NCBI RefSeq assembly: GCF_036417845.1 | Contig: NC_089978.1 | Span: 89,832,007-89,896,006 of the forward strand | Length of the DNA: 64,000 nucleotides | Source: Apteryx mantelli | Lineage: Eukaryota > Chordata > Aves > Apterygiformes > Apterygidae | Direction: 5' to 3' | Shown: in pieces, positions 1,030 through 59,225 of the stretch | How positions within the stretch are numbered: position 1 is the stretch's first letter | Layout of the letters: every line of letters starts with the position of its first letter | Notes under the pieces: model-generated | Seen by the model: only the letters and a program-made list of their open reading frames with translations | Database searches by the model: none | What the model was told of the DNA's origin: nothing | Made by a program: the position numbers and the translations under genes

Positions 1030-1071
1030 ATTTTGTTCCCATTTCTGTTGGAAGGCTGTTCCAGAGCCTTA

Positions 1072-2446
1072 CAGAATCACAGAATCACAGAATCACAGAA
1101 TGGTTGAGGTTGGAAGGGACCTCTAGAGATTGTCTAGTCCAAGCCCCCTGCTCAAGCAGGGTCACCTAGAGCACGTTGCACAGGATCGCGTCCAGACGGG
1201 TTTTGAATATCTCCAGAGAAGGAGACTCCACCACCTCTCGGGGCAACCTGTTCCAGTGCTCTGTCACCCTCACAGTGAAGACATTTTTTCCTCCTATTCA
1301 GACGAAACTTCCTGTGTTTCAGTTTGTGCCCGTTGCCTCGCATCCTGTCGCTGGGCACCACTGAAAAGAGTCTGGCCCCATCCTCTTGACACCCTCCCTT
1401 CAGATATTTGTACACATTAATAAGATCCCCCCTCAGTCTTCTCTTCTCCAGGCTAAACAGGCCCAGCTCTCTCAGTCTTTCCTCATAAGAGAGATGCTCC
1501 AGTCCCCTAATCATCTTTGTAGCCCTTCGCTGGACTTGCTCCAGTAGTGCCACATCCCTCTTGTCCTGGGGAGCCCAGAACTGGACGCAGTACTCCGGAT
1601 GTGGCCTCAGCAGGGCTGGGTAGAGGGGGAGGATCACCTCCCTCGACCTGCTGGCAACACTCTTCCTGATGCACCCCAGGATACCATTGGCCTTCTTGGC
1701 CACAAGGGCACATTGCTGCCTCATGCTTAACTTGGTGTCCACCAGCACTCCCAGGTCCTTCTCTGCAGAGCTGCTTTCCAGCAGGTCAACCCCCAACCTG
1801 TACTGGTGCATGGGGTTATTCCTCCCTAGGTGCAGGACCCTGCACTTGCCTTTGTTGAACTTCATGAGGTTCCTCTCCGCCCACCTCTCCAGCCTGTCTA
1901 GGTCTCTCTGAATGGCAGCACAGCCCTCTGGTGTATCAGCAGCTCCTCCCAGTTTTGTATCGTCAGCAAACTTGCTGAGGGTGCACTCTGTCCCTTCATC
2001 CAGGTCATTGATGAAGAAGGTGAACAGGGGTGGACCCAGTACTGACCCCTGGGGGACACCACTAGCTACAGGCCTCCAACAAGACTCTGCACCACTGATC
2101 ACAACCCTCTGAGCTCTGCCATTCAGTCAGTTCTCAGTCCACCTCACTCTCCACTCATCTAACCCACACTTCCTGAGCTTGTCTATGAGGATGTTATGGG
2201 AGACAGTGTTGAAAGCCTTGCTGAAGTCAAGGGAGACAACATCCACTGCTCTCCCCTCATCCACCCAGCCAGTCATTCCATCAGAGAAGGCTATCAGATT
2301 GGTTAGGCATGATTTCCCCTTGGTGAATCCGTGCTGACTACTCCTGATCCCCTTCTTTTCCTCCACATGAATAGAGATGGCCTCCAGGATGAGCTGCTCC
2401 ATCACCTTTCCAGGGATGGAGGTGAGGCTGACTGGCCTGTAGTTGC
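1072..2446 (-). mobile_element. CR1 LINE, 5'-truncated, minus strand
   Basis: This is a non-LTR retrotransposon of the chicken-repeat-1 family, read on the minus strand. Its 3' end is at the left, marked by three and a half copies of an 8-bp unit (CAGAATCA on the plus strand from 1072), the typical CR1 tail. The body encodes the C-terminal half of the reverse transcriptase. The match to the CR1 pattern stops near 2446, so the 5' part, including the endonuclease and any promoter, is missing, as in most genomic CR1 copies. No convincing target-site duplication was seen, which is also usual for CR1. The right boundary is accurate only to roughly 10-20 bp. Confidence 0.93.
1152..2405 (-). pseudogene. 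CR1 reverse transcriptase, C-terminal fragment with one nonsense codon
   Basis: The frame contains the reverse-transcriptase blocks in order: GFTKGKSC, then the first catalytic aspartate in [18 protein letters not shown], and the FADDTKL box holding the catalytic aspartate pair. It ends in the usual CR1 C-terminus ([12 protein letters not shown]). The frame is one continuous reading interrupted by a single TGA at 2127-2129, at a position where CR1 proteins normally have tryptophan. Apart from that stop and the 5' truncation it is well preserved, suggesting a fairly young copy. It cannot be active because the N-terminal part is absent. Confidence 0.9.
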
Positions 2447-3855
2447 CAGTAGTTACCCTTCTGATCCACAGTAACCTTCAGTCCCTTAAGGCTGGCATAT
2501 ATGCCTGAATAAGTTTATTACTGTGACACTGTCTGTATGAATAACATTTTACAGAGACATTTTACAAACATTGTCCCTACTTTGTAGAACCTATAGCGTA
2601 ACTTCAGTGCAAACATGGCAAGAGGTGGGAACCAAAATGAACTCCCTCGGAAGTGGAGTAAGAGCATAGAGAAAAAGATACACTAAGATCACAGCATAAG
2701 GAAGTCTTCAAGGTCTTGTTTCTCCTGGTTCTTTGAATTTATTCTTACAAAATATAGTCTTAAAAAGTGGACTCTGTTGTAGGAAAGCCAGAAAAATAAC
2801 AAGATTCATCCAAGACACAGTATATAATTATAGGTGCCTTGTTAATCCTTTGTTTCTATTATGGTGGCCTGTATTCTTTGATAATGGCCCTCAGCATTTT
2901 CTTTTGGCTATGTTCTTTGTATGCCTGTTGTGTATCATTTTGTAAAAGAGAGAAATCGTACTGTCCGTTCTGGTGCAGGTACTGTACCATCCTGAAGGTA
3001 CATTTACTACAAATCATCTGCTAACGGAGACGGGACGTGATGCAGAGGCCTCTCGGCAAGAGCCTGTGACACAGTGAGGATGGAATAAGGTTTCTCCTGA
3101 GCCACCAGCATCCCCAGGGGACGTAGTCCCTGGGTGCTCCACAGGCAGGAGGCTCACGGTGCCCCACTTTCCCTGAGGGACAGCTCCCGCTCTCTCACAT
3201 CTTGATTTTCAAGGATCCTGATTACAACTTAACGGAGACACTTGACAGTCAACCTGAGCTGTGCCAGCCAAATGCATATGCCTGGCATAATCTAGTTCAG
3301 CTACACGCTGCACTACTATAAAGCCTTACAAGCTGCTTGTTACAGTGCACTTCTTTTCCTGAAATTCTTTCTCATTACCTCTTGGCTTGCCTGCAACCGA
3401 ACACATGCTGAATTACCTTCTAGCTATGTGTGAGTGTAATAAATACATAACTGCCTTGTGATGTGAACCACCTCAGCACTGAGGGAAATGACCTCTCACG
3501 AGCCAACCTTGAGCCAAGACATCTGGAATAAAAAGGCACTTTGTAGCCTCAGTTCCACTTAACCACATTTTTAAGGCAGCCCCCAGGCACACAGCGGGGA
3601 GCACATCCCCCAGCGTCTGCCTCTGTGGCAGCAGTGCAAGGTTCCAGGCCTGAAACAGGACGCTTTATTTCTGTTCCAGGTCTGCACCAAGCTAGCCCAC
3701 CATCAGGCCTTGGGCCAGCTTAGATGCCGTGCAACCCCGTGTCAGGAAATGCCCGCAGAACCCACACTGCCACAGATAAGAGACACCAGATGGGAAATCT
3801 CTCCTGTCGGTGCACGGCTTCCTCCTGCAATCATGCACTGAAGCACACACTCTGC
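2447..3855. other. Intergenic region upstream of PRDX4
   Basis: No exon, RNA gene or recognisable repeat was found here. Short open frames in this stretch are isolated and lack paired splice sites or recognisable protein similarity. GC content rises toward the PRDX4 promoter. Confidence 0.55.
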
Positions 3856-3939: not shown

Positions 3940-4830
3940 CGAGCGCGGCCAGGCTCCTCCCCCGCCGCCGCCCGGGGCCGCGCCGCGCCGCGGGGCCGCG
4001 CACTCTCTCGGCGGGCCATGGAGGCGGCGCGGCGGCGGCTGCGGGCGGGCGGCGGGGCGCGGGCCCGACGCTGGGCGCTGCTGGCGGCGGCGGCGCTGCT
4101 GCTGCTGCTGCCGCTGCGCGGGGCGGCGGCGGAGCCCGAGGAGCCGCGGCGGGCGCGGGGCGACGAGCAGTGCCACTACTACGCGGGGGGCCAGGTCTAC
4201 CCGGGGGAGGCGGCTCGCCTGCCCGTGTCCGATCACTCGCTGCACCTCAGCCAGGCCAAGAGTAGGTGCCGGGCGGGAGCGGGGCGAGCCGCTGCGGGGC
4301 CGGGGGAGGAGGCCCCGGGCCGGGAGGGCGGCAGCCCTGCGCGCCCGCCGTGCCCCGGGCTCGCCGCACCGCGGCTGGGGGGGGAGCCGCGGGGGGAGCG
4401 GGCGAACGCCACATGGCGGCGCGCGGGGCCCGGCGGCGGGCCGTTAAGGGCAGCGGCGGGCGGGCTGGGGCCGTTAACGGCCGCCGTGGAGGGCGGGCGC
4501 GGGGCGCGTGCGTGCGTGCGCGCGCGGCGGCAGTGCGGCCCATGGAGGGAGAGCCACGTCAGGCGCCGTGCAGCGGTCAGCGGCGTGGGGAGGGGGGACG
4601 GGCACCGCCGGGGGCGTTGGCGGGAGGATCCCGCCCGGCGGAGCCAAAACCGCCCCTCGGCGGTGAGTGCCGCGGGCAGGAGCGGCGCCGCGGCGCCTAG
4701 GGAGGCAGCTGCCGCCGGGGGGTGGGCGGGAAGGGGGCGGCTGGGCGGGCACCGAGCCCCCCGGCCCTGTGGCCTTGCCGGCTGCCTGTGCAGGGTCAGC
4801 GCCAACAGCGAGCTGCGGTGCTGGTCAGCC
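3940..4830. promoter_or_regulatory. CpG island over the PRDX4 promoter and first exon
   Basis: About 0.9 kb of very GC- and CpG-rich DNA contrasts with the AT-rich flanks. It covers the PRDX4 start codon, exon 1 and the beginning of intron 1. No clear TATA box occurs inside the island. The TA repeat just upstream is the only AT-rich promoter-proximal element. Several long overlapping open frames here are by-products of the base composition. Confidence 0.85.
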
Positions 4831-16627: not shown

Positions 16628-16667
16628 GATCTGACTTTTGCTGGAAGGATCTGACATTTGCTGGAAA
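16628..16667. repeat. 20-bp tandem duplication
   Basis: Two adjacent 20-bp units (GATCTGAC-T/A-TTTGCTGGAA-G/A) differ at two positions. The second unit runs directly into the 36-bp repeat that recurs 1.3 kb away. Confidence 0.85.
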
Positions 16668-16701
16668 CATGTATTGTGGAAGGCATGTTTGAGGTGAACA
16701 A
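16666..16701 (+). repeat. 36-bp dispersed direct repeat, copy 1
   Basis: This 36-bp sequence (beginning AACATGTATTGTGGAAGGCA) is identical to 17962-17997. The flanks differ, so this is a discrete duplicated block. Its origin is not recognised. Confidence 0.9.
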
Positions 16702-17961
16702 GGACTTTTGCTCTGCCCGTCATTGACATGTATATACCTGATAAACCCAATAAAATAGTAATAAATTGATAATGTAACTTTCGTGATGATGGTGATAGCT
16801 ACATCAGAGGCTTAGGTGGCTGTTTAATTATTTTATATAATCAGCACGTCAGGGTTGAGATCTTCCAGCAAAACCAGCAAGAACAAATTAATTCCAAAAT
16901 CAGAGTCTAATAGTAACCACAATCCTGAATAGGATCATCCAGCAAGCAAACAGAAGTTTCAGGATTTGTTTTGCCCTTCCGTGTTTTAATTAACAGACTG
17001 TTGCAATTTTCCTTCTAGTTCCTATCTCAAATTCTGCCTCTTATATTAAGCCCATATAAAATATGTCTGAGCTGAAGGAGAGCCACTGGGAGGCAAAAGG
17101 CAAGATGAATACTTTAGTAACGCATACTGTCCACAGTTGACAAAGACTAGTTTCAATTAACCAGCTAAAATTAATTCAGATTCATAGCGATAATGAAACA
17201 CTGAGGCAGTAACAGAACATACTCACCTCATCTACATGCACATTACCAGTGCTTGCCTATTGCTTGAATTAGGTGTTTCCATGGTCTTGTTAACATACCT
17301 GGGTATGTTTTATGTACAGGTGTAGGATCAACATGTTCAAATAAGCACAAGCAGGACAAAAATTAAAATCTTAAAAAGCTTTTAGGCAACAAATAGAAGT
17401 GACATTATCTCCTAAAGGAAAGAGCACCCACCAACAAACCTCACTGAAGTCCACATTGCACTGGACATCTGTAGCATTGCCTGAAATATGACGCTTTCAC
17501 AAATTTTGGTGCACAGAGTTGAATCTAAGAACCTGACTTCCAACAGCTGATTTGAAAATACTGATCCACATCACAACAGCCACAGATGAACTCAGACTGG
17601 GCAATGCCATCTGCAATGGTCACTTACAAAATGGTAACTGAACAAAAGACATAGTGGTCTGTTCTTCAAGTACTCTTCATCTGAGATTTGAAGTAGTGGA
17701 AGAATTAAACCTCATAAAACTCTGCTTCCCAAACCCTGGGAAGTATTTACAGGCCTCTCTTGGAAGTGCATGAAACACAGATGCATGAAACTGCCATTTT
17801 GAACCTGTCTTTTCAAAAGGCAAAAAGGACAAAATTTCCAGGGCTCCAACTTCTTCCAAACATAATAAAAGCTCTCTTCTGAGCCCACGCTAACTGGCAA
17901 AAGGCTTTTCCGTTCCATGGACCACTTAGATCCAACAAACTCTTCAGCAAAGAGGCTCCTT

Positions 17962-17997
17962 AACATGTATTGTGGAAGGCATGTTTGAGGTGAACAA
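17962..17997 (+). repeat. 36-bp dispersed direct repeat, copy 2
   Basis: This is the second exact copy of the block at 16666-16701, in the same orientation about 1.3 kb downstream. No simple-sequence character explains the identity. Confidence 0.9.
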
Positions 17998-20278
17998 AGA
18001 ACTCCTGGAAAGCAAATAATTACTAGCAATGAGACTGTCTGCCTTCAACTTTCACTGCCATTTCAGGCAAATGACTCACACTCTTGGACTGCTGTCTCAG
18101 CTGTAAAAGAAAAGCTTTATAAAGTGGTGGTATCTGGAGGTGAAAGGCCACCTCTCCAAGTACAGAGGTTCTACCTTTCAGAAGAAGTGAACCCCCTTTG
18201 GGGCTGGTATTCCAACAAAGCTATCTTACCAAAAAACACCGGCAGATGGTGCCCAAACCACACGCTGATGCGCTGCCTCCAGCTCCCCAGCCAGCCAGCT
18301 CTGCCAGAGGCTGGGGTCTGACTTTCTGGAGATGCAGAGCCCTGATGCTGTTTTATTTGTGTTGCCTGTAATAAGAAGCTCACTTTAAGCAGCATTTAAT
18401 TCTTGATAGCCTCTGCCGGAGGCCCCTCCACCATCCTGGAGAACACAAAAAGCCCAGGACCCAGAGGGGGGAATCTGGTCCCTGCTCCAGGACTGCATTT
18501 TCTTACTGAAGTGTTACAAGATAAAATAAAGGAGCTACCATGTGAGGGACCAGAATGTGTAACTGTTCTTACTGAGTGCCCCAAGCACCAGCCCCCAGAG
18601 CCCCGCTCCATTGCTCCAAGGGTCTCCCATTTCTGCTATGTAACAGAAGACACAGAGCAAGGAGCAGCCTCTGGCCAGAAGAGCCTCCAGCCTCCTGGTT
18701 AGGATGCCCTGCTGGGACGTGGGGCGCCCTGCAGTCAGAGCAGCACCAGTATATTTTATATGCAGGTATTATCATTATGCCCTCCTCCAACTACGCCTTC
18801 AACAACAGCAATCAGCAGCCCTGTGCAGAGACCCTGCGCTCAGCCTGCCCCTACCCTGGGCCAGCTGAGACAGCGAGGACTGCCCAAGTCCTGCGTCCCC
18901 GCTGGGGCTCAGGCCAGGCCAGCCCTGGGCATGTGCTCCTGGCTCTCTGAGCCCCCAGGGACCATCAAGGACCCAGGAACCCAGGGAGTTTTCCAATCAC
19001 AACTGCAAACTGCAGGCACTCCTCAATTCCTATTGCAGACACTGGGAACATTTACTGGTTTCAGGCCCAAGCAACTTGCCCAAGGTTATGCACAAAGTCA
19101 GTGCCAGGGCAAGAAACAGAAGCCAAATACACACTGCTGCCCACCAAAGTCTAGTTAACTACTTAAATCACAAACCACCCTTCTTCACAGTTAGAAAACA
19201 CCATCATGTAAATTGGAGCAAGCTGGTGTTGGGAAAAATCTAATAAACTCCTTCTACTCTGAATTAAAGCAACCACATTAATTACAATCCAAAGCTTCAT
19301 AGTTCATCACATCACTAACCCTGGAGCAAAGCTTTGTGTTACTTCGCTGCCAACCCCTTCATGAAATCTGAATATTTATTCTTTTCTTTTCCTGTTAGCT
19401 AGTCCCTAGCCCAAGATGAAATAGTATCTCACACACCTAGTTTAAAATCTGTTCAGAGGAGGACCAGCAATAAAAGTCTGTCACCAATAGATACTGACAA
19501 AGAATGAAGAGAACATACAGTAAAACCAATGAAACATGCAGTAATTTTACAGTTCCTGAACTAAAACCCTCACACTTGCCAATGCTGTCATAGCTTCAAG
19601 AAATTTCTTCCTACAATGCTAAACACTGCTACTTAGCTGCAAAAGAATGAGAATTTGAGGAGGGATTACTAAAAGTTCTTATGGTATTTTTTATTAAGTC
19701 ATTTTTAATCATTTTATTTTTGACACAGAAAAATAAAAACATCTAAAACAAAGTACTATGGGAGGCAACTTAGCTCACCAATCTCACAGAATTCTCCTTA
19801 TCCGTCATTGTTAACTGAAAGGGTTGGGGGCGGGGCAATCCAGCTGCTAGAATTCCCCCTTCCTTGCTGCATTCCAAGACATGATGGGCACAGAAACATT
19901 TACTTTCCACTAGTCATAGCCAGTTACACAGATATGTTAGCTATAAACAAAAAGATTTTCTATTAACACATTTAGCTTTGTGTGGTAATGGTTAGTTACT
20001 TTATAGCACTGAGGGGTTGGTCATTAAGTTGCAAAATAAACCTAATAATAATTACTATGTTAAAATATTTTAATTCTGAATATGAGATTTAAGAAAAACT
20101 AATTTTATATCACCCATGAAAGCATACAGAGATGTACATAAACAACATTCCTCAAATACAGATATCCTTAGCCTGTACTCAGAGACGGAGCCAGCTTGGA
20201 GTTACCTTCCAAGAATAAAAATACATGAGCACATATTCTCTTTCTTTTTATTACTATACATAGTTTACATAGGTTTTA

Positions 20279-49329: not shown

Positions 49330-49470
49330 ATGAAGAAGCAGTTGCTCCTCCTGTTCACACATCGGGGACTCGTCAGCCGAGGGGGTCGCAGGGGGAAGCG
49401 CCGCCGAAAATGGCCTCGTTCCACATCCGCGCCGCGCGACCTGAGGACTGCCCCGACCTGCTGCGACTGA
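49330..49470 (+). other. SAT1 upstream ORF 2, overlapping the main start
   Basis: This 46-codon frame starts with MKKQLLLLFTHRG in the 5' UTR. It runs out of frame across the SAT1 ATG at 49410 and ends at TGA 49468-49470 inside exon 1. Its own ATG has C at -3 (weak), while the SAT1 ATG has A at -3 and G at +4 (strong), an arrangement that favours leaky scanning. Translation of SAT1 mRNA is known to be polyamine-sensitive in mammals. A role for this uORF is inference. Confidence 0.5.
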
Positions 49471-51886
49471 TCAAGGTGCGCGTCGGGCGGGGGGGAGAGG
49501 GGAGGGGAGCGAGCGGCGGTTGGGGGTGTTGTTCAAACGGCACGCGAGACCGGCCGTTCGCCGGCGCCGCGCTGGGGGGAGGGACGGGGCGTCCCGCAGG
49601 GAGGGGGGGTTGGCCCGCCCGGGGGGGGTACCTCTGCCCTTCTGCCTGAGAAAAACAAGCTCTTGCGCAAGTCTGCGGAGGGGGTGAGTGGCCAATAAGG
49701 AAGCCGCTGAGGAGACCTGCGGGGACAGCTTGCTTACATGTTGTTCTCTTCCAGGAACTGGCGAAATACGAGGACATGGAGGACCAAGTGGTGTTAACTG
49801 AGAAAGGTATACACGCGGCAGCTGCTCACCTCGTTGATAGCCTAATGACAATGCCTGTAGCTTAGGTGACAATTTGTTCTGCTTTTCTAGAACTGCTTGA
49901 GGATGGCTTTGGCGAGCATCCTTTCTACCACTGTCTTGTTGCAGAAGTGCCAAAAGAACAGTGGTCGTCTGAGGGTGAGACTTTCTGCCTCTTGTTTTTG
50001 ATGCTAAATACACAAGAGATGTCTTGTACTTAATGTTGTCGATTGTACATAAGGTTCTGCCAATGAACTGGGGCAGGAGGACTAGGTTAACTGTTAAAAA
50101 TGGAGTAATGTGCAGTGATATTCTCTGAAGTAGTCACTAATCCTGGAGATGTGGGAAGATCAGGTATAATATAATGTACTTTAATTCCAATTAATTAAAT
50201 GGCTTTTCTTGTTTGACCCTAACTTACCTTATGTAATCCTGTTGAATCACATTTTTTCTTTAATTTGTCCCCAATCTTCAGGTTACAGTCTCTAGCTTCG
50301 CCATGTACATGGCCCTTCTGTGTACATGGATGGGCGGGGAGGTAACTAAAAGATCCGTTACACAATAAAGTAGATGATCATAATATGAGGTAAGGTCTAC
50401 AGGGACAAGTGTTATTCCCAAACCTTTACCAAAAAACACGGTAGATCAGAAATTTGTATGCACGCTTCTCCCACAGTACGTGCAGAGTATTACAGCAGAT
50501 ACGATCTTAATTCTCAAGATTTAGAACCAAGTGTGCTGCTGTTGGAAGAGTTGGTTTCTCTTGTGTTGAGCCATAGAATTATACTTGAAGCAGCGGCTTT
50601 CCTTACTTAAAGTAGATAAGTTTTCTGGTGTGAGAGATAGAGAAGGGCATGATGCTATCAGTGCAAACATAAGTTAGTGTTGGAAGTGTTGCTGTAAATG
50701 TGGTCAGCAAGCATGCCCTTCTCACACAGTAATTACTGAGGAATATAAATTGTAAGATCAGTGCTCTCTAGTTTGTTAGCTTGTTTTGTTTGCTAAGGAA
50801 GCAGAGTTGAGGTAATCATCTAGATTCTGAACTGCCGTGTAAAATATGACTTGTATTCCAGAATGGAAATACTGATGAACTGGTAGGGTATGTATTTGTA
50901 GAAAAAAGCCTTATGTTCAGTACTTACTATAACATTGCTTTTGAGGATTTCAGGATATGAAAAGGGCATTCTTCACTGTTAGGTCAATTAAAATTTTGTT
51001 AGAACTCATTTTCAGTTGTGTGCTTATTTGCAAACTTCACTTTTAATTCTAACCTAATAGTGAACAGCTGCATGTTACAGAAAGAGGTACAAAAAGAGGG
51101 ACTCTATATTTAAGCCTGCATGTAAGACTTGAATTAATATTTTTGCCTTTTAAATTCAGACTAGCTAAAGTTACACCCTTTGTTTCAGAACACAGCATTG
51201 TGGGATTTGCCATGTACTATTTCACTTACGATCCATGGATTGGAAAACTGCTGTATCTTGAAGATTTCTATGTGATGGCTGAGTACAGAGGTAGGTTTTA
51301 TGGCATTAGACAAGTAATTATAGGGTTTCTCTAAAACTGAAAACTTACTACTTTTTTTTTGACTTTTTAGGACTTGGCATTGGGTCAGAAATTCTGAAGA
51401 ACTTGAGTCAGGTATGTCTAAGTGATAAGACTAAAAAAGCACAACTGAGGATATGTGACAAGTAGTGCTCTTCTGCTAACAGCATGAAAGTTTCTCATTA
51501 AACATTACTCAGTTAACACAGCTGAGTTATTAAAGGAGGTGACAGGACACTAGATAAAGCTTTAAACTTTCTCTAGAGTGTATTAAACAGTGACAAATGC
51601 TGAACTGATAAATGATTTTAAAACTTCTGACAACACGCAGTTGAGTAGCTTCACCCATTTTTACTAGGTTTAGTGAGGGCTTGTTTTTAATTCATACTGT
51701 TGCACACTCTTGCAGGTTGCTGTCAAGTGCCGCTGCAGCAGTATGCACTTCCTTGTTGCAGAGTGGAATGAGCCTTCCATCAGGTTCTACAAGAGAAGAG
51801 GTGCCTCCGATCTGTCCACTGAGGAGGGGTGGAGGCTTTTCAAAATTGACAAAGAATATCTCTTGAAGATGGCAACAGAAGAGTGA
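49410..51886 (+). CDS. SAT1: Spermidine/spermine N1-acetyltransferase 1, 6 exons
   Basis: The exons are 49410-49475, 49755-49806, 49891-49974, 51189-51290, 51371-51411 and 51716-51886. All introns are GT-AG, and the 516 nt give 171 aa, the same length as in mammals. It is a GNAT-fold enzyme that transfers acetyl from acetyl-CoA to the N1 amine of spermidine and spermine, starting polyamine catabolism and export in the cytosol. The acetyl-CoA loop is RGLGIG (101-106), the catalytic Tyr is Tyr140 ([13 protein letters not shown]), and substrate-site acidic residues lie in LYLEDFYV (90-96). The C-terminus ends MATEE, the signal required in mammals for rapid proteasomal turnover. The start has a strong context. 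Regulation visible here includes a TATA promoter, two uORFs and a stop-containing optional exon in intron 3. Confidence 0.98.
50282..50389 (+). other. SAT1: SAT1 poison exon (exon X) in intron 3
   Basis: A long pyrimidine tract ending in CAG at 50279-50281 precedes this 108-nt segment, and a strong donor (GAG|GTAAGG) follows it. Spliced after exon 3 it reads GGT TAC AGT CTC TAG, so translation stops after 71 codons at 50293-50295. Mammalian SAT1 has a corresponding exon X of about 110 nt in the same intron. It is included when polyamines are low and sends the mRNA to nonsense-mediated decay. Inside it, CCATGTACA (50301-50309) and TGTACATGG (50321-50329) form a perfect 9-bp hairpin with an 11-nt loop. 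A second, weaker donor (GAG|GTAACT) lies at 50342. Position, size and stop agree with exon X; the identity of regulators is not visible. Confidence 0.82.
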
Positions 51887-56501: not shown

Positions 56502-57850
56502 GGCTATCGAGCAGGTTTTTGGCCAGTGCAACCTCGACCAAGGGCTCCGAGCAGCCCCGGTGAAGGATGGCCAGGTAACCAGGGCTGATCAAGCCCGGGG
56601 GAGCGGCAGCAGCTCCCGTCCAGCAAGGTGGACGTGGGAGAAAGGGCTTAAGGCTGAGGATGGTAGATTCGGGCTCTGGGGTGGAAACACGGCACCACGG
56701 ACACCTGCGCCCTACTAGAACAGGGCTGCTAGGTGCACCTCCTCGTATCCCCCAGGCCTCTCCATACCCGAATTTTTTGCAATGAGAAATGACAGCCGCG
56801 CCTGATAACAGAATAAAGCACAGCCGCCCACCCCAGCTGAGAAGAGGGCGGGGAAAAAAAAAAAACAGCTTCAAATCAGTTTCAGTTTCATTTCGCGGAT
56901 TTACTGGAGGCCCAAAAAAACCATGAAGGGCCGCAGGAGGCAGTGAGCTCTCGTGAGAGCAAAAAGCAAACACAGGGCTGCAGGAACGCCTCTGCACTGA
57001 ACGGTTTTGTTAATTTGCATTTGGACCTCTGCATATTTTCATCGTTCACAAAGCAGGTGTAAAATGATCGTGTTCAAGGAAAAAGGCATCTCTATTTTCT
57101 TTAGCTCTGTTTTCTTTCTCTACAAAATCAGGTTGAAAAGAACATGCTTTAGTAAGATGAAACCAGATGCCAATTCTCACGTAAAAGTTAGCTGCGCAGC
57201 ATAATGTGGCAGCTTCACATTTTCCAAATCCCCTCCCAGAAGCCCACCATGTGGCAGAGAGAAGTGAACACCTGAAATTCCCACTAAAAACCCCCCTCCA
57301 CCTGTAGAAAAAAGCAGGAGAGAGATGCTAACTTTCCACATTAAAGCCCATCAGTGTTTCCGGTATTGCAGTGATGACTTAAGCGTTTTCAAAAGACGCT
57401 GGTAGAAATGCAGGATGAGATTTTTCAAAATTGACTACAGGCATACCTCACTTTATTGCGCTTCACAGATATTGCATTTTTTACAAATTGAAGGTTTGTG
57501 GCAACCCTGTGTTGAGCAAGTCTGTCGGCACCATTTTTCCAACAGCATGTGCTCACTTCATGTCTCTGTGTCACATTTGGGTAATTCTCGCAATATTTCA
57601 AACTTTTTCATTATTATTATATCTGTTATGGTGGTCTGCGATCAGTGATCTTTGACGTTACTATTGCAATTGTTTTGGGGCGCCACGAACCGCACCCACA
57701 TAAGGCGGTGAACTTTTAATCGATAAACATTGTGTGTGTGCTGACTGCTCCACTGACCGGCCGTTCCCCCATCTCTCTCTCCCTCTCCACAGGCCTCCCT
57801 ATTCCCTGAGACAGAACAATATTGACATTAGGCCAATTAATAACCCTCCA

Positions 57851-58772
57851 ATGGCCTCTAAGTGTTCAAGTGAAAGGAAGAGTCACACGTCTCTCACTTT
57901 AAATCAAAAGCTAGCAATGATGAAGCTTAGTGAGGAAGGCATGTCGAAAGCTGAGAGAGGCCAAAAGCAAGGCCTCTTGCACTGAACAGTTTGCCAAGTT
58001 GTGAAGGCAAAGGAAAAGCTCTCGAAGGAAATTCAAAGTGCTACTCCAGTGAACACACGAATACTAAGAAAGCAAAACAGCCTTACTGCTGATATGGAGA
58101 AAGTTTTAGTGGTCTGGATAGAAGATCAAACCAGCCACAACATTCCTGTAAGCCAAAGCCTAATGCAGAGCAAGGCCCTAACTCTCTTCTATTCTGTGAA
58201 AGCTGAGAGAGGTGAGGAAGCTGCAGAAGAAAGTTTGAAGCTAGCAGAGGTTGGTTCAGGAAAGAAGCCATCTCCATAACATGAAAGTGCAAGGTGAAGC
58301 AGCAAGTGCTGATGTAGAAGCTGCAGCAAGTTACCCAGAAGATCTAGCTAAGAGAATTGATGAAGGTGGCTACACTAAACAACAGATTTTCAATGTAGAC
58401 GAAACAGCCTTCTATTGGAAGAAGATGCCGTCTAGGACTTTCATAGCTAGAGAGGAGAAATCAATGCCTGGCTTCAAAGCTTCAAAGGACAGGCTGACAG
58501 CAAGAGAACTAGAACTGACAGCAAGAGAACTAGAATTAGAAGTGGAGCCTGAAGATGTGACTGAATTGCTGCCATCTCATGATAAAACTTTAACAGATGA
58601 GGAGTTGCTTATTCTGGATGAGCAAAGAAAGTGGTTTCTTGAGCTGGAATCTACTCCTGGTGAAGATGCTGTGAACATTGCTGAAATGACAACAAAGGAT
58701 TTAGTATATTACATAAACTTAGCTGATAAAGCAGCAGCAGAGTTTGAGAGGATTGACTCCAATTTTGAATGA
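57851..58772 (+). pseudogene. Tigger transposase remnant lacking the catalytic core
   Basis: The frame opens with MASKCSSERKSHTSLTLNQK, the start of the CENP-B-type N-terminal helix-turn-helix. It stops at TGA 57983-57985, apparently a decayed CAA. It resumes through [20 protein letters not shown] (the second, CENP-B-type DNA-binding helices), then shifts frame near 58230-58262, where a few bases appear lost. From about 58263 to 58772 it is open again: the first catalytic aspartate is present in [12 protein letters not shown], and the protein continues to [16 protein letters not shown]. There it jumps directly to an acidic C-terminal region ([17 protein letters not shown]). The second and third acidic catalytic residues of the DDD triad are in the deleted part. 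At the junction a 21-bp unit is repeated in tandem in frame. The product cannot transpose. Confidence 0.88.
58494..58535 (+). repeat. 21-bp perfect tandem duplication at the transposase deletion junction
   Basis: CTGACAGCAAGAGAACTAGA plus A occurs twice back to back (58494-58514 and 58515-58535), encoding an in-frame repeat of LTARELE. It lies exactly where the sequence jumps from the middle to the end of the transposase, so it is probably a repair scar of the internal deletion. Confidence 0.95.
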
Positions 58773-59225
58773 AGTTCTATTGTGGGTAAAATGCTATCAA
58801 ACAGCATCGCATGCTACAGAGAAATCCTTCGTGAAAGGAAGAGTCAATCGATGCGGCAAACTTCACTGCTGTCTTATTTTAAGGAATTGCCACAGCCACC
58901 CCAACCTTCAGCAACCACCACCCTGATCAGTCAGCAGCCATCAACACTGAGGCAAGACCCTCCATCAGCAAAAAGATTACAACTCACTGAAGGATCAGGT
59001 GATGGTTAGCATTTTTTAGCAATAAAGTATTTTTTTAATTAAGGTATGTACATTTTTTTTTTTAGACATAATGCTATTGCACACTTAATAGACTACAGTA
59101 TAGTGTAAATATAACTTTTATAGGCACTGGAAACCAAAAAATTTGTGTGACTTGCTTTATTGCGATATTTGCTATATTGCAGTGGTCTGGAACTGAACCC
59201 GCAATATCTCCAAGGTATGGCTGTA

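Follow-up and report, generated by a model that had tools for sequence, protein, structure and literature searches.

The 64-kb window (the whole stretch of DNA that was analysed) raises the question of how a transposon of the Tigger1 family came to lie in a bird chromosome. The reading that we favour, with a probability of roughly 0.85, is that the element is a Tigger1 fossil in a ratite (most likely kiwi) chromosome, that the family entered horizontally, and that an internally deleted form, moved by a helper, landed near SAT1. Tigger1 in kiwi is already in print; a BLASTn comparison published in 2016 counted more than 20 such insertions in the brown kiwi, at 97% or above over at least 92% of Tigger1_MNa, an element almost 97.5% similar to human TIGGER1 (PMC4971623). 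That report raised horizontal transfer, left both transfer and contamination open, and remarked that Tigger1_MNa copies may have diverged to an extent compatible with neutrality. The brown kiwi insertions belong to the same family and most likely to the same host genus as the window copy, but neither a locus nor a deletion form nor emu copies figure in the report's account of them. The locus described here argues against contamination, and adds the emu copies and the deletion form; among the literature titles and abstracts listed (a scope outside of which most subscription papers lie), no emu Tigger1, deletion form or integration locus was found, and the string 'transpos' is absent from the main text of the kiwi genome paper (PMC4511969).

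The first-pass annotation had claimed CAGGCATACC-type termini and TA duplications, and both were borne out by a TA on either side, imperfect inverted ends and exact coordinates (Table 1). The boundaries read ...GACTA/CAGGCATACC (57438) to GGTATGGCTG (59223)/TACTG..., in the wider context ...AAAATTGACTA/CAGGCATACC...GGTATGGCTG/TACTGTACTTTGG..., where the slash marks the junction. CAGGCATACC, which we take to be the start motif of Tigger1 terminal inverted repeats, is exact at the 5' end and has one mismatch at the 3' end. When TACAGGCATACC was searched at up to one mismatch, two sites were returned in 64 kb, and these were the two element ends, on opposite strands; 0.24 sites are expected by chance, and two or more occurred in 3 of 100 shuffles. 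Self-BLAST and pattern searches yielded no second Tigger1 copy in the window, and Rfam and tRNA scans of the window found nothing. The element is a Tigger1 DNA transposon, of the pogo type within the Tc1/mariner superfamily, which agrees with eutherian Tigger1 (TIGGER1 of Repbase; TIGD1) in the family of its transposase, in having CAGGCATACC ends and in targeting TA, but differs in its bird host, in a deletion of ~633 bp, and in carrying I518, L534 and S580, residues rare in mammalian rows.

Table 1. Coordinates of the Tigger1 element, its parts and its host surroundings in the window.
Feature	Positions	Strand	Basis
Tigger1 element, internally deleted, 1786 bp	57438..59223	+	ends, protein relatives, alignment to provisional consensus
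Target-site TA, 5' side	57436..57437	.	read from sequence and pattern match
Target-site TA, 3' side	59224..59225	.	read from sequence and pattern match
5' end, imperfect inverted repeat, starts CAGGCATACC	57438..57493	+	local alignment, both ends
3' end, inverted repeat, CAGCCATACC...	59167..59223	-	local alignment of ends and pattern match
Transposase frame remains	57855..59009	+	ORF ends, frames, alignment
Piece with HTH_Tnp_Tc5 DNA-binding domain	58001..58276	+	Pfam PF03221, E 9.8e-08
Internal-deletion junction; 211 codons (~633 bp) missing versus most relatives	58488..58499	+	alignments to relatives and provisional consensus
Perfect 21-bp tandem duplication at junction (TARELEL x2)	58494..58535	+	Tandem Repeats Finder
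SAT1, host gene, coding span (exons by eye), ~5.5 kb upstream of element	49410..51886	+	solved diamine acetyltransferase 1, E 5e-102
PRDX4 exon 1, host gene (end approximate)	4018..4261	+	peroxiredoxin-4, E 2.4e-16
CR1 retrotransposon, 5'-truncated, avian-type 8-bp tail	~1071..2477	-	reverse-transcriptase matches, tail

The transposase frame is interrupted by TGA stops at 57983-57985 and 58770-58772, and its frame undergoes a net change between ~58228 and ~58260. An intact kiwi transposase, P0001, gave CENP-B_N, HTH_Tnp_Tc5 and DDE_1 in a domain scan; the scan of the window copy, which covered pieces other than the N-terminal one, detected HTH_Tnp_Tc5 but no DDE_1, so that CENP-B_N is recorded for the relatives alone. 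The window copy has lost most of its DDE catalytic domain. With no DDE_1 in the scanned pieces, 211 codons gone, and stops and frameshifts in what is left, it is not an autonomous, full-length Tigger1, but a non-autonomous deletion derivative, a fossil that is inert and for which no present function is proposed.

The deletion has counterparts among the relatives, of which 164 proteins were fetched; 109 hold both flanks of the junction. The spacing from KASKDRLT to ARELEL is 211 residues in 62 of these 109 and 209-212 in 77, whereas it is zero in two, P0002 and P0069, both from A. owenii (little spotted kiwi). Their junction, KASKDRLT^ARELEL, is identical to that of the window copy, although they are without its 21-bp duplication; the sharing was seen at the level of protein sequence. 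When 81 residues of P0002 over the junction were used as a query, P0002 and P0069 were the sole high-identity spanners among the best 120 of 166 matches, a vervet row (P0124) that also covers it being only 43% identical and having a longer gap. The window copy is 86.9% identical in protein to P0002 and 77.5% to P0069, values too low for a single insertion in two kiwi species, and these are probably insertions other than the window copy; the deleted form has therefore probably multiplied, and the recurrence of the junction in two of 109 proteins, both from A. owenii, suggests that it did so inside the bird. Since the catalytic region is absent from the deleted form, its movement would have required a full-length helper; the need for a helper transposase follows from how Tc1/mariner elements work. 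We reasoned from the protein-level recurrence of the junction that the deletion form was probably amplified within the bird by such a helper, which would have acted in trans.

A search with the read-through transposase returned 490 protein matches, the best being an Apteryx mantelli 'tigger transposable element-derived protein 1' (E 7e-201). One A. mantelli, 13 A. owenii and four emu entries are among the best 120 of these 490, which also include many mammalian sequences, primate TIGD1 among them, and members from further hosts such as Gavialis, Euleptes and Candoia; the emu proteins P0063 and P0065 are nearly identical, and some entries may be one locus counted twice. The description of Tigger1 as a mammal family did not hold, as the emu, gharial, Euleptes and Candoia entries show that it is not mammal-only. 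Among the matches listed, birds are represented by Apteryx and Dromaius only, and no neognath appears in the best 120 of 490, the best 120 of 166 or the 86 of 86 matches, with the proviso that annotated proteins undersample dead transposons. The tallies of PMC9219625 give Tigger for 20 species of reptile and one of bird, and the paper places Tigger1 in Crocodilia, with transfer involving Eutheria. No DNA relative was matched in viral and genome contigs (by protein or by a 27-base non-coding pattern) or in plasmids. Tigger1 sequence also occurs within predicted host proteins: a visual system homeobox 2 of Crocodylus porosus (P0139) starts with ~65 residues of the transposase, and is either an exonised fragment or a gene-model artefact, and a GUF1 translation-factor isoform of Loxodonta africana (P0162) aligns with 52% of the transposase stretch used as query, at 78% identity, a possible exonisation or annotation artefact.

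For consensus comparison, 74 of the 120 listed proteins were grouped by host. The kiwi consensus proved 97.8% identical over 588 aa to one built from 20 mammalian rows, which include two strepsirrhine primates and two afrotherians; identity was 96.0% to the consensus of vervet fossil copies, 94.3% to the gharial copy P0050, 92.6% to emu and 92.3% to the primate TIGD1 gene. The values for Bombina (73.0%), Cherax (70.2%) and Trichuris (69.0%) are lower, and at 69-70% in protein the relatives from Trichuris and the crayfish lie too far off for either to have been a recent donor. SAT1 in the window matches the best solved diamine acetyltransferase 1, a chain that is presumably human, at 148 of 171 residues (86.5%). 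Tigger1 thus stands at 97.8% against 86.5% for the host protein. A single host gene is a slender yardstick, but the enzyme that it encodes is conserved, and the Tigger1 copies set against it have decayed.

A tree was built from 49 rows, namely 48 of the 164 proteins plus the window copy, with six rows serving as outgroup. The 43 amniote rows, the window copy included, form a clade with support of 96/99, within which the order is largely shallow; 20 of the 46 inner branches of the whole tree are open. This star-like clade is the picture of what may be one master gene widely copied in a short time. Kiwi, emu, crocodilian and mammal copies are so alike that Tigger1 has probably jumped between animal lineages, and horizontal transfer, advanced in the annotation as the simpler reading, is supported by the 97.8% to 86.5% comparison and by the shallowness of the amniote clade. 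Transposases of the gecko Euleptes (P0035), the boa Candoia (P0038) and the gharial Gavialis (P0050 and P0136) fall within the same clade; judged from these sequences, the presence of squamate and crocodilian Tigger1 there suggests that the transfer to birds was not the sole one.

Residues that set the ratite copies apart were sought in 109 of the 164 proteins at positions 518, 534 and 580, which were picked post hoc where the group consensuses differ. I, V or L at 518 is found in 12 of 13 ratite versus 7 of 63 mammalian rows with data, L at 534 in 9 of 11 versus 4 of 64, and S at 580 in 8 of 10 versus 3 of 55, an enrichment with p < 2e-6, a value to be read in the light of the post hoc choice of sites and of partial dependence among the rows. 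The window copy, which stands outside the ratite counts, has I518, L534 and S580. Squamate rows have S580 in 3 of 4, I518 in 1 of 4 and L534 in none of 4; neither of 2 crocodilian rows has L534, and the gharial proteins P0050 and P0136, although in the same amniote clade as the window copy, have T518 and F534 and are without the ratite residues. Among thirteen metagenome rows, kept out of the test, two of the nine with data at 534 have L, and two of the eight with data at 580 have S. These patterns suggest a ratite Tigger1 subfamily, but are in themselves no proof of a single entry.

The age of the window copy was approached at the DNA level with a provisional Tigger1 consensus, which for the non-coding parts is not independent evidence. 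In translation, this provisional consensus shows 98.5% identity with the mammalian protein consensus and 97.5% with that of kiwi, so it does not simply reproduce the window copy. Against it, the window copy has 106 differences over 1777 aligned sites: 30 of 98 CpG sites differ and 76 of 1679 non-CpG sites (~95% identical), the latter divided between coding (57 of 1121) and non-coding (19 of 558) sites without a significant difference (p 0.14). The K2P distance at non-CpG sites is 0.047. Kiwi and emu split 54-56 Ma ago in most data sets and 39 Ma ago in one, according to the estimates given in PMC12368558; were the copy as old as that split, the rate would be ~0.85e-9 per site per year, part of the difference being the subfamily's. 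With a K2P that is partly due to the subfamily and a rate that is assumed, the copy may date back to the parting of kiwi and emu or be younger.

The alternative that survives best, though we hold it to be a minority prospect, is that Tigger1 entered the kiwi and emu lineages separately, from similar donors, after they had split. Kiwi, emu and window rows do not form a single clade in the best tree, but a forced kiwi-emu clade was not rejected (p-AU 0.405). At an assumed rate above ~0.85e-9 per site per year, a K2P of 0.047 would mean an age below 54-56 Ma, and position 62 is Q in 10 of 13 kiwi rows, with K in the two emu rows that have data there, which favours separate entries; against these stand I518, L534 and S580, enriched in kiwi and emu alike, and similar decay, members being 82.7-96.6% (kiwi) and 86.7-89.2% (emu) identical to the kiwi consensus. 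A fuller account, to which we give somewhat under even odds, is one in which a single Tigger1 strain swept eutherians, crocodilians, squamates and the kiwi-emu ancestor in a short span, giving rise to a ratite subfamily (I518, L534, S580) and to a 633-bp deletion derivative that multiplied in trans in kiwi.

That mammalian contamination or an assembly chimera placed a mammalian Tigger1 in a bird contig is very improbable. Contamination of the kiwi genome was left open by the authors of PMC4971623, single-copy pogo cases came under suspicion of it in the account of PMC7325037, and contaminants might also be present among the predicted A. owenii and emu proteins; yet the annotation's argument that clean TA boundaries speak against it gained strength, since the exact, TA-flanked ends lie in the same window as PRDX4, SAT1 and an avian CR1. 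The tail of this CR1, 3.9 units of ACAGAATC, is the reverse complement of ATTCTRTG, the microsatellite that PMC8665684, in its treatment of CR1, ascribes to nearly all avian members. With reverse-transcriptase matches in two frames and long open frames of 324 aa (stop-to-stop) and 116 aa, the CR1 looks fairly young; the same treatment describes CR1 as recently expanded in kiwi but nearly inactive in emu and cassowary. Together with the deletion junction shared with A. owenii, this makes kiwi the favoured host, and emu or cassowary a less likely one. Self-BLAST of the 64 kb gave a sole repeat pair (16666-16704 and 17962-18000, 39 bp, 97% identity, direct), more in keeping with a bird genome than with a mammalian one full of SINEs. 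That the whole window is mammalian, an idea prompted by the mammalian look of the element, was rejected on account of the avian-tailed CR1, this lone repeat pair, a CpG observed/expected ratio of 0.35, and an inspection by eye of ~26 of the 64 kb that turned up no mammalian SINE. Contamination is further opposed by several kiwi entries, by the deletion in the window copy, otherwise found only in kiwi among 109 proteins, by the ratite-enriched I518, L534 and S580 of the window copy, by emu entries, and by the position of kiwi P0001 on an 88.5-Mb contig.

Equally improbable is vertical inheritance from an amniote ancestor with slow evolution, which the close relatives in crocodilians and squamates would favour by making the family wide among amniotes, but which, as the annotation had held, fits the similarity badly: master sequences of now broken copies are more alike than a conserved host enzyme is, the amniote copies form a shallow star unlike the host tree, and no neognath stands among the matches listed, in a protein record that undersamples dead transposons.

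Under the horizontal reading, near-identical active Tigger1 would have circulated among amniotes and entered the ratite lineage through a donor or vector. A full-length copy in the bird would then have supplied transposase with which elements were cut and pasted into TA sites, among them the internally deleted form, minus ~633 bp of the catalytic region. One deleted copy would have landed at a TA ~5.5 kb downstream of SAT1, and afterwards gained the 21-bp duplication and point mutations that accompany its present inert state.

Transposon transfer into birds is seldom documented; by the figures that PMC7070016 gives, fewer than 3% of 975 inferred vertebrate transposon transfers involve mammals and birds. 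A firm ratite case would turn a doubtful remark from 2016 into a documented transfer, and insertions shared or unshared among kiwi, emu and cassowary could date it directly. If the single-sweep account is true, Tigger1 would be a datable marker of an amniote transfer network, with entry into ratites at or before ~54 Ma.
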